Of a stretch of DNA of 64,000 bases, positions 27,762 to 63,591 are shown piece after piece. The notes under the pieces were generated by a model, which searched no databases, was not told the DNA's origin, and saw nothing but the letters and a program-made list of their open reading frames with translations. The stretch is from Blastococcus sp. LR1 (GTDB lineage: Bacteria > Actinomycetota > Actinomycetes > Mycobacteriales > Geodermatophilaceae): positions 62,001 to 126,000 of the forward strand of contig NZ_JAIUJY010000005.1 in assembly GCF_020166105.1 (NCBI RefSeq), in the 5' to 3' direction. The stretch's first letter is position 1; each line of letters starts with the position of its first letter. Both the position numbers and the translations under genes were made by a program.

Positions 27762-29756
27762 ATGTCGCAGGCAGAGGCGGAGACCGTGATCAGCGGTCTC
27801 GACGACGAGCAGCGCGAGGCGGCGCAGGCGGTGTCGGGCCCGGTCTGCATCCTCGCCGGTGCCGGAACGGGGAAGACCCGCACCATCACCCACCGGATCG
27901 CCTACGGCGTGCACACCGGGAACTACGTCGCCGAGCAGGTGCTGGCGGTGACCTTCACCGCCCGGGCGGCCGGCGAGCTCCGCACCCGGCTGGCGGGCCT
28001 GGGAGTCGGCGGAGTGCAGGCGCGCACCTTCCACGCCGCCGCCATGCGGCAGCTCCGCTACTTCGCGCCCCGAGTGCTGGGCGGCCCGATGCCCCCGCTC
28101 ATCGAGAACAAGCTGCGCGTCGTCGCCTCGGCGGCCACCCGCAACCGGCTCACCACCGATCGCACCAGCCTGCGCGACCTCGCCAGCGAGATCGAGTGGG
28201 CCAAGACGACGCTGGCGACGCCGGAGGACTACCCGGCCCGGGCCAAGGCGGCCGGCCGGGAGACGCCGTTCGAGCCGGCCGCGGTGGCCGCGGTCTACGC
28301 CAGCTACGAGTCGGCCAAGCAGCGCGACGGCGCACTGGACTTCGAGGACCTGCTCCTGGTCACCGCTTTCGCCATCGAGGAGCACCAGGACGTCGCCCGG
28401 CAGGTCCGCGCCCAGTACCGGCACTTCGTCGTCGACGAGTACCAGGACGTGAACCCGCTGCAGCAGCGGCTGCTCGACGCCTGGCTGGGTGGCCGCGCCG
28501 ACGTCTGCGTCGTCGGCGACCCCAACCAGACGATCTACTCGTTCACCGGCGCGAACCCCGACTACCTGCTGGGCTTCGCCGACCGCTATCCCGACGCCAC
28601 CGTGGTCAAGCTGGAGCGCGACTACCGATCGACCCCGCAGGTCGTCGGGCTGGCCAACAAGCTCATCGGCATGGCGCCGCGGCGCAAGGGCCTGCCCGGG
28701 CTGCGGCTCCTCGGCCAGCGCGCCGCGGGCGCCGAGCCGCGGTTCACCGAGTACCCCGACGAGCCCGCCGAGGCCGCCGCCGTCGCTGCTCGCTGCCGGG
28801 CCCTGATCGACGAGGGGATGCCCGCGGCGGAGATGGCCGTCCTCTTCCGCATCAACGCGCAGTCCGAGGTCTACGAGAACGCGCTGGCCGCCGCCGGGGT
28901 GCCGTACGTGCTCAAGGGCGGGGAGCGGTTCTTCGAGCGGCCCGAGGTGCGCGAGGCCGTGCTGCTCCTCCGGGGTGCCGCCGCCGGCGGCAACGAGCCC
29001 GGGATGCTCGTGCCCGCGGTGCGCGACGTCCTCGCCTCGACCGGGTGGGCCGAGCACCGGCCACCGCCCGGAGGAGCGGCGCGGGACCGCTGGCAGTCGC
29101 TGGCCGCGCTGGTCGACCTCGCCGTCGACCTGGTCGAGGAGAACCAGTCGCTGGACCTGGCCGGCTTCGTCACCCACCTGGCCCAGCGCGCCGATGCCCA
29201 GCACGCGCCCACGGTCCAGGGCGTCACGCTCGCCTCGATGCACGCGGCGAAGGGCCTGGAGTGGGACGTCGTCTTCGTCGTCGGCCTGGTCGAGGGCGTG
29301 CTGCCGATCGCCCAGGCGCTGAGCAAGCCCGAGGCGGTGGAGGAGGAGCGCAGGCTCCTCTACGTGGCGATCACCCGTGCCCGGGAGCAGCTGTCGCTCT
29401 CCTGGTCGCTGGCCCGGAACCCGGGTGGACGCCGGGCGCGGCCGCGCAGCCAGTTCCTCACCGGCCTGGCTCCGGAGTCCGGACCCACCGCCCCGCCCGC
29501 CCGTCGGCCGGCGAAGAAGGTCAAGGTCGTGCTCGAGGGTGAGGCCGGTGAGCTGTTCGAGCGGCTCCGCGCCTGGCGCAGCCAGGCGGCCGCGACCCAG
29601 TCGGTGCCGGCGTACGTGGTCTTCTCCGACGCCACCCTCCAGGCGATCGCGGAGAGCCGTCCGGCCAACCTGCGCGAGCTCTCAGGGCTGCCCGGAGTGG
29701 GCAGCAAGAAGCTCGAGCTGTACGGCGAGGACGTGCTCGCGACGGTCACCGGCTGA
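27762..29756 (+). CDS. uvrD2: UvrD2-type SF1 DNA helicase with HRDC domain
   Basis: A 664-residue 3'-5' DNA helicase: Walker A LAGAGTGKTRT (about 31-41), Walker B VVDEYQDVNP (about 223-232), GDPNQTIYSFTG, the YRSTPQV motif IV, MHAAKGLEWD and VAITRAREQL. A C-terminal HRDC domain (about 585-660: LFERLRAWR...LPGVGSKKLELYGEDVL) is typical of UvrD2. Mycobacterial UvrD2 has a four-cysteine motif between motor and HRDC; this protein has no cysteine there, only a Pro/Ala/Lys linker (PTAPPARRPAKKVKV). ATG at 27762 follows AGGAACGGCGACG. It corresponds to Rv3198c. Confidence 0.92.
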   Translation: MSQAEAETVISGLDDEQREAAQAVSGPVCILAGAGTGKTRTITHRIAYGVHTGNYVAEQVLAVTFTARAAGELRTRLAGLGVGGVQARTFHAAAMRQLRYFAPRVLGGPMPPLIENKLRVVASAATRNRLTTDRTSLRDLASEIEWAKTTLATPEDYPARAKAAGRETPFEPAAVAAVYASYESAKQRDGALDFEDLLLVTAFAIEEHQDVARQVRAQYRHFVVDEYQDVNPLQQRLLDAWLGGRADVCVVGDPNQTIYSFTGANPDYLLGFADRYPDATVVKLERDYRSTPQVVGLANKLIGMAPRRKGLPGLRLLGQRAAGAEPRFTEYPDEPAEAAAVAARCRALIDEGMPAAEMAVLFRINAQSEVYENALAAAGVPYVLKGGERFFERPEVREAVLLLRGAAAGGNEPGMLVPAVRDVLASTGWAEHRPPPGGAARDRWQSLAALVDLAVDLVEENQSLDLAGFVTHLAQRADAQHAPTVQGVTLASMHAAKGLEWDVVFVVGLVEGVLPIAQALSKPEAVEEERRLLYVAITRAREQLSLSWSLARNPGGRRARPRSQFLTGLAPESGPTAPPARRPAKKVKVVLEGEAGELFERLRAWRSQAAATQSVPAYVVFSDATLQAIAESRPANLRELSGLPGVGSKKLELYGEDVLATVTG

Positions 29757-29820
29757 AGCAGGACCACCGCTCCTCGAACGCCTCGCACGCTCGGCGCGGG
29801 CCCCTGAAGGGCGGCCGACG
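29754..29820 (+). repeat. Intergenic hairpin repeat, copy A (partial)
   Basis: Begins at the uvrD2 stop and contains AGGACC, 16 nt, then the shared core CTCGCACGCTCG (29782-29793), followed by a diverged right half (GGGCCC..GGCCG). It shares left half and core with copies B (34741-34815) and C (51583-51659) but lacks their conserved right end. It may act as the uvrD2 terminator. Confidence 0.55.
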
Positions 29821-29840
29821 CGCCTGCTGCGGCGACGTCC

Positions 29841-29880
29841 GTTTATTCGTTTGACCGCATCTCGGCCGGGCCCCTAGGGT
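29841..29880 (+). promoter_or_regulatory. whiB7 promoter with upstream AT-rich WhiB7-type element
   Basis: TTGACC (29851-29856) and TAGGGT (29875-29880) separated by 18 bp form a strong housekeeping-type promoter. An AT-rich block GTTTATTCGT (29841-29850), rare in this sequence, abuts the -35 box. WhiB7 is known to activate promoters through its AT-hook binding an AT-rich element just upstream of the -35, so autoregulation is inferred. The start site would be near 29887, giving a ~450-nt leader before whiB7. Confidence 0.75.
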
Positions 29881-29957
29881 TCTGACCCACACGAGCTGCG
29901 CCCCGATGCGCCCGGCCGACCGGCCGGAACGCGGAGAGAGAAGGGAGGGGCACTTCG

Positions 29958-30197
29958 ATGATCACCCTGAACACGACCGCCACCTCCGCTGACCTCCGCT
30001 CGGGTGGCGGCAACGCGATGGGCACGTCGGCCGCCCCGTTCGGCGCCACCGGTCTGTCCGCCTGGGCCTGCACCGCTGCCGTCGTCGGCACGCGACGCGA
30101 GCGGCCCACTGCTGAGCGCTTCCTCGCTCCCGCATACCTGCACCAGAACGACAGCACCACCCTCGGGATCCATTCCTCGGGGAGACCGCAGAGCTAG
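29958..30197 (+). CDS. Upstream ORF in the whiB7 leader (79 residues)
   Basis: ATG at 29958 preceded by a strong ribosome binding site (GGGAGGGG). The peptide begins MITLNTTATSADLRSGGGNAMG and has no recognised domain. Third positions are GC-rich over the first ~50 codons, supporting translation. It stops 21 nt before the attenuator stem at 30219. In other actinobacteria a translated uORF senses ribosome inhibition and controls read-through to whiB7; this one is long for that role. It may be a leader peptide with a functional product or simply an extended sensor. Confidence 0.65.
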   Translation: MITLNTTATSADLRSGGGNAMGTSAAPFGATGLSAWACTAAVVGTRRERPTAERFLAPAYLHQNDSTTLGIHSSGRPQS

Positions 30198-30218
30198 CGC
30201 TCGACCGGTCCTCCTCGA

Positions 30219-30259
30219 GGCCGCGGAACCCGAACCCGGGATCCGCGGCCTTTTTCTTT
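30219..30259 (+). terminator. whiB7 attenuator (intrinsic terminator)
   Basis: Perfect 9-bp stem GGCCGCGGA (30219-30227) / TCCGCGGCC (30242-30250) followed at once by TTTTTCTTT. A T-tract is exceptional in this GC-rich window. It lies between the uORF stop and the whiB7 start, so most transcripts should end here unless translation of the uORF is disturbed. Confidence 0.9.
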
Positions 30260-30336
30260 CCTCCGCGGCGCCCGGCCCCGACTTCGGTCGGCGGACCCCC
30301 GCCGGCCGTACCCGACGAGTACGAGGAGGAGCGGCA

Positions 30337-30681
30337 GTGCAGCAGACGATCGACCGCCCGACGTCCCACCGCCGACCCGGTCTCCCGCGGACCAACGGCC
30401 CGACGCCGTTCAACCCGCGCCCGCCCCTGTCACCGGCCCCGGTGCGGCGCCCGCTGCCGTGCCGGGTGGAGGACCCCGAACTGTGGTTCGCCGAGAGCCC
30501 GACCGACCTGGAGCGCGCGAAGGGGCTCTGCGGCACGTGCCCGTTGCGCCAGCAGTGCCTGGCCGGCGCGCTCGACCGCGCCGAGCCGTGGGGCGTCTGG
30601 GGCGGCGAGATCTTCGAACGGGGCGTGGTCATCGCCCGGAAGCGGCCTCGCGGCCGGCCCCGCAAGGTGGTCGCCGCGTGA
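30337..30681 (+). CDS. whiB7: WhiB7 transcriptional activator of intrinsic antibiotic resistance
   Basis: A 114-residue WhiB protein. Four iron-sulfur cysteines are present (LPCRVEDPELWF, CGTC, and QQC). The WhiB7-specific turn EPWGVWGGE that contacts the housekeeping sigma factor and a C-terminal AT-hook RGRPRK are both present. GTG at 30337 follows GAGGAGG. The N-terminus is ~20 residues longer than the 92-residue mycobacterial form and Pro-rich. It is regulated by the upstream promoter, uORF and attenuator. In relatives it activates efflux, ribosome-protection and drug-modification genes on ribosome inhibition. It corresponds to Rv3197A. Confidence 0.95.
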   Translation: MQQTIDRPTSHRRPGLPRTNGPTPFNPRPPLSPAPVRRPLPCRVEDPELWFAESPTDLERAKGLCGTCPLRQQCLAGALDRAEPWGVWGGEIFERGVVIARKRPRGRPRKVVAA

Positions 30682-30731
30682 GCCCCGCAGCACAAGACGA
30701 GCAGTCCCTCACCAGAGCGAAGGAACCAGCG

Positions 30732-30893
30732 ATGATCCCTCTCGAGTACGACACGGCTCGCAGCAGACTGCACGAGCTGCAGGCCGAGGCGCAGGCCGCC
30801 GCCCGCGCTCGCCGGCTCTACCTGGCGCGTCGGGCCACCCGTCGCGCCGAGCGGGCGGTCCGGCGGGCCGCCCGCGCCAGCGCCGCCGTCTGA
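30732..30893 (+). CDS. Small basic protein downstream of whiB7 (53 residues)
   Basis: ATG at 30732 about 50 nt after whiB7, preceded by GAAGGAACC. The peptide (MIPLEYDTARSRLHELQAEA, then Ala/Arg repeats) is probably one continuous amphipathic, strongly basic helix, with Ala-Arg-Arg spacing suggesting nucleic-acid binding or a coiled coil. No family recognised. It ends 8 nt before a very strong terminator, so it likely shares the whiB7 transcript. Confidence 0.6.
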   Translation: MIPLEYDTARSRLHELQAEAQAAARARRLYLARRATRRAERAVRRAARASAAV

Positions 30894-30900
30894 GCACACC

Positions 30901-30947
30901 GCGATCCTCCGGACCGCACCCCCGATGGGGGCGGTCCGGAGGATCGC
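30901..30947. terminator. Strong bidirectional terminator
   Basis: Perfect 17-bp stem (GCGATCCTCCGGACCGC at 30901-30917 with its complement at 30931-30947) and a 13-nt loop. It separates the whiB7 unit (+) from the ABC1 kinase gene (-), whose stop codon begins at 30948. Confidence 0.92.
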
Positions 30948-32270
30948 TCAGTCCTTGAAGCCGGGGAGCCACTCCTCGAGCACGGCGCGCCAGGGCGCGT
31001 CGGCGTCGAGCTGACAGAGCACGCCGATCGATCCGATCGTCACCCGGTGGATGAGCAGGTAGGCCGGTGGGAGGTTGAGCTGGCGGCCGAGGCGGTTGGC
31101 CTCGGTCCGCGGGTCGGCGATGCGGGCGGCCTGCTCCTGCATCCACGCGCGGGTGAAGTGGAAGTGCGGCTCGGCCACCGGCTCCAGCAGTGGACGCAGG
31201 TAGTCCAGGACGCCCTCGGGATCGATCTCCATCCCGGGTCGCACGAACCCCTCCGAGCGGAGGTCGGCGAGCACCTCGGGCGCCCGGCCGGCCAGCGCCC
31301 AGCGCAGCAGCCGGCCGATCGGCTCGGGGTGGCCGTCAGGGAGCCTGGCGGTGGCGCCGAAGTCGATGACGCCCAGCCGGCCGTCGGGCATGAGCCGGAA
31401 GTTCCCGGGGTGCGGGTCGGCGTGCAGCATCCCGGCCCGCTGCGGGCCCGAGAAGTGCAGGACGGCCATCTGGCGCCCGGCGCGGTCGCGCTGCTCGCGT
31501 GTGCCGTCGGCGATGATCCGGGAGAGCGGCGTCCCCTCCATCCACTCCGAGACGACGACCTTCGGCGCGCTGGCCACCACCCGGGGCACCGCGATCTCCG
31601 GATCGTCGGCGTAGGCCGCGGCGAACGCCCGTTGCGCGTCGGCCTCCAGGCCGTAGTCCAGCTCCTCGGCGACCCGCGCCTTCAGCTCGGCGATCAGCGG
31701 CTTGACGTCCAGGCCCGGGAAGAGCGAGGAGAACAGCCGGGCGAACCGGGCCAGCTGGTTGAGGTCGGCCATGAGCGCCGTGCCGGCGCCGGGGTACTGG
31801 ATCTTCACCGCCACGTCGCGACCGTCGCGCCAGGTCGCGCGGTGCACCTGGCCGATGCTCGCCGCGGCGGCGGGGGTGTCGTCGAACTCGCGGAAACGCT
31901 GCCGCCAGGTGCCGCCGAGCTGCTGGGCGAGGACGGCATGCACCGTCCGCACGGGCATCGGCGGCGCCTCCTCCTGCAGCTTGACCAGCGCCTCGCGGTA
32001 GGGGGCGGCCATCTCCTCGGGGACGGCGGCCTCGAACACCGACAGGGTCTGCCCGAGCTTCATCGCGCCGCCCTTGAGCTGGCCGAGAACGGCGAACAGC
32101 TGCTCGGCGGTGCGCGCCTGGAGCTCGGCGCTGACGGCCTCGGCCGACTGCCCGGACAGCCGCTTGCCCAGTCCGAGGGTCGCCCGGCCTGCGGCACCGA
32201 GGGGGAGCGACGCCAGGCGGGCGGTGCGCGCGACCTGTCCTCGCGGCATCACAGGTCGCTCGTCACTCAC
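30948..32270 (-). CDS. ABC1/UbiB-family atypical kinase
   Basis: A 440-residue protein of the UbiB/ADCK family. Family hallmarks are all present: the KxGQ motif (GGAMKLGQTLS, about 85-95), Ala-rich loop (TPAAAASIGQVHRA), VAVKIQYPG lysine, HADPHPGNF and the metal-binding DFGA. UbiB-like proteins are ATPases linked to quinone/lipid handling rather than ordinary protein kinases. GTG at 32270 follows GAGGAGGAC and overlaps the stop of the E1-like gene (GTGA), so the two are co-translated. It corresponds to Rv3197. Its role in actinobacteria is undefined; WhiB7 proximity is conserved. Confidence 0.9.
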   Translation of the reverse strand: MSDERPVMPRGQVARTARLASLPLGAAGRATLGLGKRLSGQSAEAVSAELQARTAEQLFAVLGQLKGGAMKLGQTLSVFEAAVPEEMAAPYREALVKLQEEAPPMPVRTVHAVLAQQLGGTWRQRFREFDDTPAAAASIGQVHRATWRDGRDVAVKIQYPGAGTALMADLNQLARFARLFSSLFPGLDVKPLIAELKARVAEELDYGLEADAQRAFAAAYADDPEIAVPRVVASAPKVVVSEWMEGTPLSRIIADGTREQRDRAGRQMAVLHFSGPQRAGMLHADPHPGNFRLMPDGRLGVIDFGATARLPDGHPEPIGRLLRWALAGRAPEVLADLRSEGFVRPGMEIDPEGVLDYLRPLLEPVAEPHFHFTRAWMQEQAARIADPRTEANRLGRQLNLPPAYLLIHRVTIGSIGVLCQLDADAPWRAVLEEWLPGFKD

Positions 32271-40555: not shown

Positions 40556-40632
40556 CGCGGGGTGGAGCAGCTCGGTAGCTCGCTGGGCTCATAACCCAGA
40601 GGTCGCAGGTTCGAATCCTGTCCCCGCTACCA
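40556..40632 (+). tRNA. Initiator tRNA-fMet (CAT)
   Basis: A 77-nt cloverleaf with encoded CCA. Initiator features are all visible: a C1-U72 mismatch at the acceptor end (CGCGGGG against CCCCGCT), three G-C pairs at the base of the anticodon stem (GGG-CTCATAA-CCC), and the anticodon CAT. The T arm is GCAGG-TTCGAAT-CCTGT. It is identical to the copy at 42505. The -10-like TACAGT lies 12 nt upstream. Confidence 0.97.
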
Positions 40633-42504: not shown

Positions 42505-42581
42505 CGCGGGGTGGAGCAGCTCGGTAGCTCGCTGGGCTCATAACCCAGAGGTCGCAGGTTCGAATCCTGTCCCCGCTACCA
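42505..42581 (+). tRNA. Initiator tRNA-fMet (CAT), second copy
   Basis: Identical to the gene at 40556: C1-U72 mismatch, GGG/CCC anticodon-stem base, CAT anticodon and encoded CCA. The -10-like TACAGT is at 42488-42493. Confidence 0.97.
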
Positions 42582-63339: not shown

Positions 63340-63591
63340 TCAGGCGGTGCGGACCCGGGTGCGAGCCTGACGGCGCTTCAGCGCGCGTCGCTCGTCCTCG
63401 GAGAGACCGCCCCAGACGCCGGAGTCCTGGCCCGAGCGGAGAGCCCAGTCCAGGCACGACTGCACCACCGGGCAGCGCTGGCACACGGCCTTGGCCTGCT
63501 CGATCTGGCCGATTGCCGGGCCGGTCGTCCCGATCGGGAAGAACAGCTCCGGATCCTCGTCCCGGCAGAGCGCGCGGTGGCGCCAGTCCAT
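63340..63591 (-). CDS. whiB1: WhiB1 iron-sulfur regulator
   Basis: An 83-residue WhiB protein with cysteines at 9, 37, 40 and 46, exactly the M. tuberculosis WhiB1 positions. It has GQDSGVWGGLSEDERRALKR (the sigma-binding turn) and a basic tail. WhiB1 holds an oxygen-stable, NO-sensitive [4Fe-4S] cluster and is essential in mycobacteria. ATG at 63591 follows CGAGGAGTACGAAGCC. A GTGA-N6-TCAC motif 201 bp upstream suggests CRP control. Adjacent to pdtaS as Rv3219/Rv3220c. Confidence 0.96.
   Translation of the reverse strand: MDWRHRALCRDEDPELFFPIGTTGPAIGQIEQAKAVCQRCPVVQSCLDWALRSGQDSGVWGGLSEDERRALKRRQARTRVRTA

Follow-up and report, generated by a model that had tools for sequence, protein, structure and literature searches.

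The 64-kb stretch of Blastococcus DNA analysed here (the window; 74% GC) contains, in locus order, a uvrD2-like helicase gene (27762-29756), a leader region, and whiB7 (30337..30681, plus strand). The last of these starts with GTG at 30337 behind the Shine-Dalgarno (SD) sequence GAGGAGGAG, ends with TGA at 30679-30681, and encodes 114 amino acids, including the AT-hook RGRPRK. The initial annotation of this DNA had placed whiB7 downstream of the leader, and the homology searches agree: the protein matches the Pfam family Whib (PF02467, E 2e-15), and its best match is the M. tuberculosis WhiB7 chain 7kif (E 2.2e-33), followed by WhiB1 (1.3e-8), with no WhiB7 hit in NCBIfam. The protein has the four Cys residues of the WhiB Fe-S domain, and its EPWGVWGGE turn and KRPRGRPRK AT-hook can be aligned to 7kif. 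Its nearest relatives are the WhiB7 proteins of Geodermatophilus and Blastococcus, L001 (Blastococcus sp. TBT05-19) standing at 81%. The surrounding genome (4.02 Mb) has five WhiB matches in all, and a second WhiB-family gene lies near the end of the window (63379-63585, minus strand). Directly 3' of whiB7 is a small basic ORF of 53 amino acids (30732-30893, plus strand), possibly co-transcribed with it. This ORF has no Pfam or NCBIfam match and weak tblastn relatives (E 0.005-0.63), found at the corresponding position in nine of 80 loci (64% over 53 amino acids in L015). Between this ORF and a convergent ABC1-kinase gene stands a hairpin of 17 + 4 bp (30901-30947; -48.2 kcal/mol, z -9.18) without a T-tract. 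An Rfam search of the whole window at the gathering score returned only two tRNA matches and none in the whiB7 leader; these are two same-strand tRNA-Met (CAT) genes about 1.9 kb apart (40556-40632 and 42505-42581), with equal scores of 61.8 bits.

The leader opens with the box TTTATT (29842..29847, plus strand), the one AT-only stretch of six or more nucleotides in the window. It lies 3 nt 5' of the -35 element of a promoter at 29851..29880 on the same strand (-35 at 29851-29856, -10 at 29875-29880), giving the order TTTATT-CGT-TTGACC-18-TAGGGT. This AT-rich promoter layout, as first annotated, is read directly from the letters and recurs among relatives, with the pattern TTGA[CT]/TANNNT present in 65 of 80 Geodermatophilaceae leaders. 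The spacer in these 65 is 18 nt in 57, 17 nt in seven, and 19 nt in one; the six positions that lie 3 nt 5' of the -35 are all A/T in 45 and five of six in 19, the commonest box being TTAATT (39). Eleven of the 15 leaders without the pattern (L004, L006, L007, L035, L091, L094, L097, L103, L109, L110, and L111; Geodermatophilus and Goekera are among those named) carry TTGCG[CG] in place of TTGACC and retain both the AT box and a -10-like element resembling TACTGT or TAACCT. As for the other four, L093 keeps TTGACC but has a longer spacer, L119 reads TTGCGT, and no clear site is visible in L107 or L155. A generic sigma-70 promoter scan of 29000-31500 found no promoters, and we infer that the -10 is too distant from TATAAT. 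Passages of PMC7157823 place the Streptomyces WblC site, GAAAWY, 3 nt 5' of the -35. The boxes seen here (TTTATT in the window, TTAATT in relatives) do not match that consensus, whereas their AT-rich character and the 3-nt spacing agree with it; judged from its sequence and position, TTTATT is probably the WhiB7 AT-hook site.

Downstream of the promoter, an SD-like AAGGGAGGGG read from the sequence (29941-29950, plus strand) precedes, as the initial annotation had proposed, an upstream ORF (uORF); it has 79 codons (29958..30197, plus strand), and its translation runs from ATG at 29958 to TAG at 30195-30197. The comparison started from 150 leaders, 40 of the family leaders being obtained by position, which reduced to 134 unique sequences. 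Eight (L020, L032, L033, L037, L039, L062, L078, and L117) were set aside, either because no terminator pattern could be located or because the leader was truncated; the hairpin is nonetheless visible in L033, L037, and L078. In all 126 that remained, from Geodermatophilaceae and other families and each with a located terminator, a uORF was called. An SD-like motif stands at all 81 family uORF starts (GTG 44, ATG 34, TTG 3). In the initial set of 29 Geodermatophilaceae leaders (the window plus 28 loci, with L020 outside this set, its match beginning 22 nt from a contig start), the uORF has 79-116 codons and ends 21-26 nt 5' of a nearly invariant hairpin. The two main family groups (51 and 27 leaders) each have a median uORF length of 103 amino acids; the median is 51 in 21 mycobacteria, 65 in three family outliers, 66 in 19 Pseudonocardiaceae and relatives, and 65 in five Rhodococcus/Gordonia. 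The uORF of the window is the shortest in its own group.

That hairpin (30218-30251) and the T-tract TTTTTCTTT (30251-30259) form, according to folding and alignment, an intrinsic terminator (30218..30259, plus strand). A hairpin with a T-tract had been claimed here and is real, but its stem is longer than the 9 bp first given: 10 bp, an A.A mismatch, and a further 4 bp. The 58-nt terminator piece folds with a minimum free energy (MFE) of -32.1 kcal/mol (z -4.35; none of 200 shuffles as low). The hairpin is present in all 29 of the first-examined leaders, and in the MAFFT alignment 99.3% of its cells are paired, against 50.5% for the best slid control, with no covariation. A generic terminator scan of 29000-31500 reported no terminators, presumably because the mismatch breaks the stem. 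The T-tract had also been called unique, and the sole T5/A5 run of the window does start at 30251. Among the 81 family leaders, the T run after the hairpin reaches at least five in four and at least four in six, with a median of six T in nine positions; going by these letters, the T-tract is the least conserved feature of the leader, and most relatives have no comparable tract. Perhaps the relatives must terminate on weaker tracts, or mainly pause. NusG aids termination in mycobacteria, and it may do so on the weak T-tracts of these relatives as well.

Two further structures emerged from the leader alignment. The hairpin H1 (30178..30217, plus strand), found by folding, holds the uORF stop TAG (30195-30197) in its UAGC loop; it has an energy of -22.5 kcal/mol (z -3.63), reached by one of 200 shuffles, and in 79 of 81 family leaders the stop lies inside a perfect 4-nt inverted repeat. 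The predicted antiterminator joins UCGGGAUCC (30163..30171, plus strand), within the uORF, to 30225-30233, bases of the terminator 5' arm on the same strand, as paired in the MFE structure. When RNA 30158-30236 is folded, without the terminator 3' arm, the MFE structure is the antiterminator around H1 (-44.0 kcal/mol, z -5.19); when the 3' arm is included (30158-30251), it flips to H1 plus the terminator (-57.0 kcal/mol, z -5.47). Shuffling the donor stretch of the window raises the MFE from -44.0 to -32.5 ± 2.7 kcal/mol, with none of 100 shuffles as low. Of the 126 leaders, 124 have an MFE lower than their shuffled mean, and for 88 of them no more than five of 100 shuffles fold as stably. The expected number of donor-arm pairs exceeds the shuffled mean in all 126 leaders, and in 42 it is higher than in 95% or more of the 60 shuffles; the window is outside those 42, four of 60 shuffles reaching its value, and its MFE pair count is matched by 11 of 100 donor shuffles. 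Donors from a foreign group come close to a leader's own (9.3 versus 10.1 expected pairs), and RNAduplex energies in the window's group do not separate the own donors (-17.8 kcal/mol) from shuffled donors (-16.5) or from pairing with geoB arms (-18.4). The count of leaders that flip (123 of 126) was rejected as evidence, since 728 of 810 donor-shuffled controls also pass the antiterminator threshold. Pair counting in the MAFFT alignment gave 91.3% paired cells and one two-sided pair for H1, and 91.8% paired cells for the antiterminator, with one two-sided pair in four sequences, which we read as a one-base register slip; there is little covariation, the arms being almost invariant. In other genera, going by eye through sequences and duplexes and without counting, we see the pairing kept with other letters (CCGGGU/ACCCGG in L022, GAGGGCGUCC/GGACUCCCUC in L118, and UCCGUGG/CCACGGA in mycobacteria). 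The fold flip and the donor shuffling point to an antiterminator that overlaps both uORF and terminator sequence; the other tests are weaker or null.

A covariance model of H1 and the terminator, designated R1, has matches in 107 of the 112 family genomes at E 0.1, of which 105 were full length at 3.2e-8 or better. A strong whiB7 match was obtained in 107 family genomes, and in 103 of these the element lies 32-151 nt 5' of whiB7 on the same strand. In the remaining four it is not found before whiB7 because contig ends break the locus: G026 has the element at the end of one contig and whiB7 at the end of another, and whiB7 of G002, G066, and G067 starts less than 180 nt from the contig start. 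One further contig (L160, G069) ends 2 nt past the element. In the class, where the comparison covers the matches listed and totals are at least those given, at least 173 of the 296 genomes have an R1 match at E 0.01, and 246 of 296 have a whiB7 match at E 1e-14. Among 141 listed full-length class hits besides the window, 109 lie 36-269 nt 5' of a listed whiB7, 31 are in genomes with no whiB7 among the listed matches, and one lies elsewhere and resembles a plain terminator. A listed whiB7 without a listed R1 hit occurs in 39 genomes, many of them from the same-order family f2, in which whiB7 was found in 24 of 24 genomes and 20 gave no R1 match. On mycobacterial leaders, R1 scores 14.9-25.8 bits on the plus strand in 21 of 22 loci and nothing in L031; because the model is this insensitive, the class count is a lower bound, and letter divergence is a likelier reason for the missing hits than loss. 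Possible copies away from whiB7, namely four family hits that score weakly at 29-30 bits (L156-L159) and an additional hit in G293, were set aside, none of them lying before whiB7; by our reading of the translations, L157 precedes a GroEL-like ORF and the second G293 hit follows a nitroreductase-like ORF. A record titled UNVERIFIED_ORG Bacillus sp. AZ43 (L008) carries a Geodermatophilaceae whiB7 (80% identity) with its leader, and its organism name looks wrong.

Placed between uvrD2 and whiB7, the stable hairpin and its T-tract could also be an ordinary terminator, directed for example against uvrD2 read-through or pervasive transcription and having no link to translation. We consider this extremely improbable: the hairpin lies inside the whiB7 transcription unit, 3' of both promoter and uORF, its 5' arm would also serve as an antiterminator arm, and R1 keeps its place before whiB7 in the family (103 of 107 genomes) and in 109 of the listed class hits. 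If the hairpin is tied to the uORF, the uORF product might be the functional part, as a working peptide or as a sequence-specific arrest peptide stalling the ribosome in the manner of erm leaders. The long open frame with its SD-like motif in 81 of 81 family leaders would suit such a role, as would the conserved C-terminal residues. The latter, however, overlap the RNA arms, which sit in the last 25 codons, where silent sites also change most slowly (pS 0.071, versus 0.173 in the body). In 18 chosen close pairs, some from the same species, the uORF body has a pN/pS of 1.01 and the last 25 codons one of 1.43, against 0.21 in the WhiB7 domain, so that no selection on the peptide is detectable, and the peptide has no match in Pfam or NCBIfam. 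Among the 81 family leaders, the uORF frame is open in all, the +1 frame in one, the +2 frame in 29, and the antisense -0 frame in 80; because that antisense frame is nearly always open, openness alone is not decisive at such a base composition. A frame that stays open while its peptide drifts indicates that ribosome transit is what is conserved, and we read these sequences as selected for transit and RNA pairing. A functional or arrest peptide thus appears very improbable.

It may also be asked whether the codons just before the antiterminator arm make the leader a narrow amino-acid sensor, Asn, Asp, and His codons reporting the charging of particular tRNAs in the way that a run of alanines may in mycobacteria. 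At codons -7 to -3 before the arm, in 50 dereplicated leaders of the window's group (here and in the linker-pairing counts, L143 was left out for want of an anchor), Asn makes up 17.6%, versus 0.5% in the body, and Ala 1.6%, versus 18.2%; Asp and His are also enriched. In 21 mycobacterial uORFs, by contrast, Ala accounts for 75.2% of these codons and 37.0% of the body. From the size of the ribosome footprint, we estimate that a ribosome halted there would just clear the antiterminator arm. On the other hand, the decision point has no run of one regulatory codon, only a mixture of Asn, His, Asp, and Thr with no fixed residue: at -5 there are 22 Asn, 11 His, and 8 Asp among the 50. Asn occurs in 36 of 50 leaders of the window's group and nine of 26 of the second family group, and 30 leaders of other class members share no common residue there. 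The same stretch is also A-rich (31% versus 9%) and less paired (0.54 versus 0.33, higher in 47 of 50). Because it could equally be an A-rich, less-paired linker, a changed amino-acid sensor is only a lead, and a narrow sensor is quite unlikely.

We interpret the element as the whiB7 leader attenuator of a Geodermatophilaceae bacterium, a ribosome-controlled switch between terminator and antiterminator, and put the probability of this reading at about 0.9. The parts, their conservation, and the two mutually exclusive folds are computed results, as is the lack of detectable peptide selection. RNA polymerase would initiate at the AT-box promoter, and ribosomes would translate the uORF behind it. 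A ribosome that reaches the stop codon would open H1 and so block the antiterminator; the terminator hairpin would then fold, and transcription would stop near 30259. If a ribosome stalls or fails in the body of the uORF, 30163-30171 would remain available and, enclosing an intact H1, base-pair with 30225-30233 ahead of synthesis of the terminator 3' arm, and the polymerase would continue into whiB7. By analogy, stalling would be the trigger and antibiotics the stimulus, and WhiB7 would probably act through the AT box to raise the activity of its own promoter; induction by macrolides and lincosamides and autoactivation are carried over to Blastococcus from other genera. The attenuation interpretation made at the outset is borne out by sequence, homology, and comparison, with a layout as in published whiB7/wblC systems. 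The initial annotation had further called the control unit complete; the parts it named are all present, but it lacked the antiterminator and the stop-codon hairpin, without which there is no switch.

The mechanism is already published for mycobacteria and Streptomyces. Passages of PMC10727445, PMC11550727, PMC4128351, and PMC7157823 describe a whiB7/wblC leader with a uORF, a Rho-independent terminator, an overlapping antiterminator, and an AT-rich element 5' of the -35, all of which recur here before whiB7; parts of PMC11550727, PMC13393426, and PMC13236596 describe uORF-dependent attenuation with amino-acid starvation as a further trigger, and a portion of PMC4128351 extends the attenuation pattern to M. 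bovis and M. marinum. Mycobacterial leaders have the same order of elements in other letters, whereas the main Geodermatophilaceae groups differ in their longer uORF and in having no alanine run before the arm, and most members of the family differ from the published systems in their degenerate T-tract. In ilvB1-type amino-acid attenuators of mycobacteria, too, the position of a ribosome on a leader ORF selects between terminator and antiterminator, according to a section of PMC13236596; unlike these, the whiB7 leader has no run of codons for an end-product pathway, its uORF far exceeds a short leader peptide in length, and its target is a transcription factor. Leader peptides of the erm type (in passages of PMC4128351) and, reportedly, of ARE-ABCF genes likewise involve an antibiotic-responsive uORF 5' of a resistance function, but the whiB7 uORF, with pN/pS about 1, has no conserved peptide.

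Within the literature collection searched, we found no paper joining Geodermatophilaceae with whiB7, Blastococcus with WhiB7, or Geodermatophilus with a uORF. The present analysis adds an environmental family that has received little study to the known range of a published resistance-control switch, and defines its antiterminator and stop-codon hairpin base by base. For WhiB7 specialists the finding is an ordinary one, useful as an anatomically complete environmental example. R1 detects the element 5' of whiB7 in much of the class, yet the Rfam search of the window gave no match for it, so an RNA family suitable for annotation may be missing from Rfam. More speculatively, and with a low probability, the decision point may have been re-tuned in the Geodermatophilaceae, the alanine run being gone, Asn/Asp/His (NAC) codons standing at the arm, and the uORF being about twice as long; the altered codons offer a testable contrast with the mycobacterial alanine response. 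If this were true, whiB7 in this family would respond to shortage of another amino acid, or to any stalling along a lengthened track, and the sensor codons would be the fast-evolving, lineage-specific part of an ancient switch.
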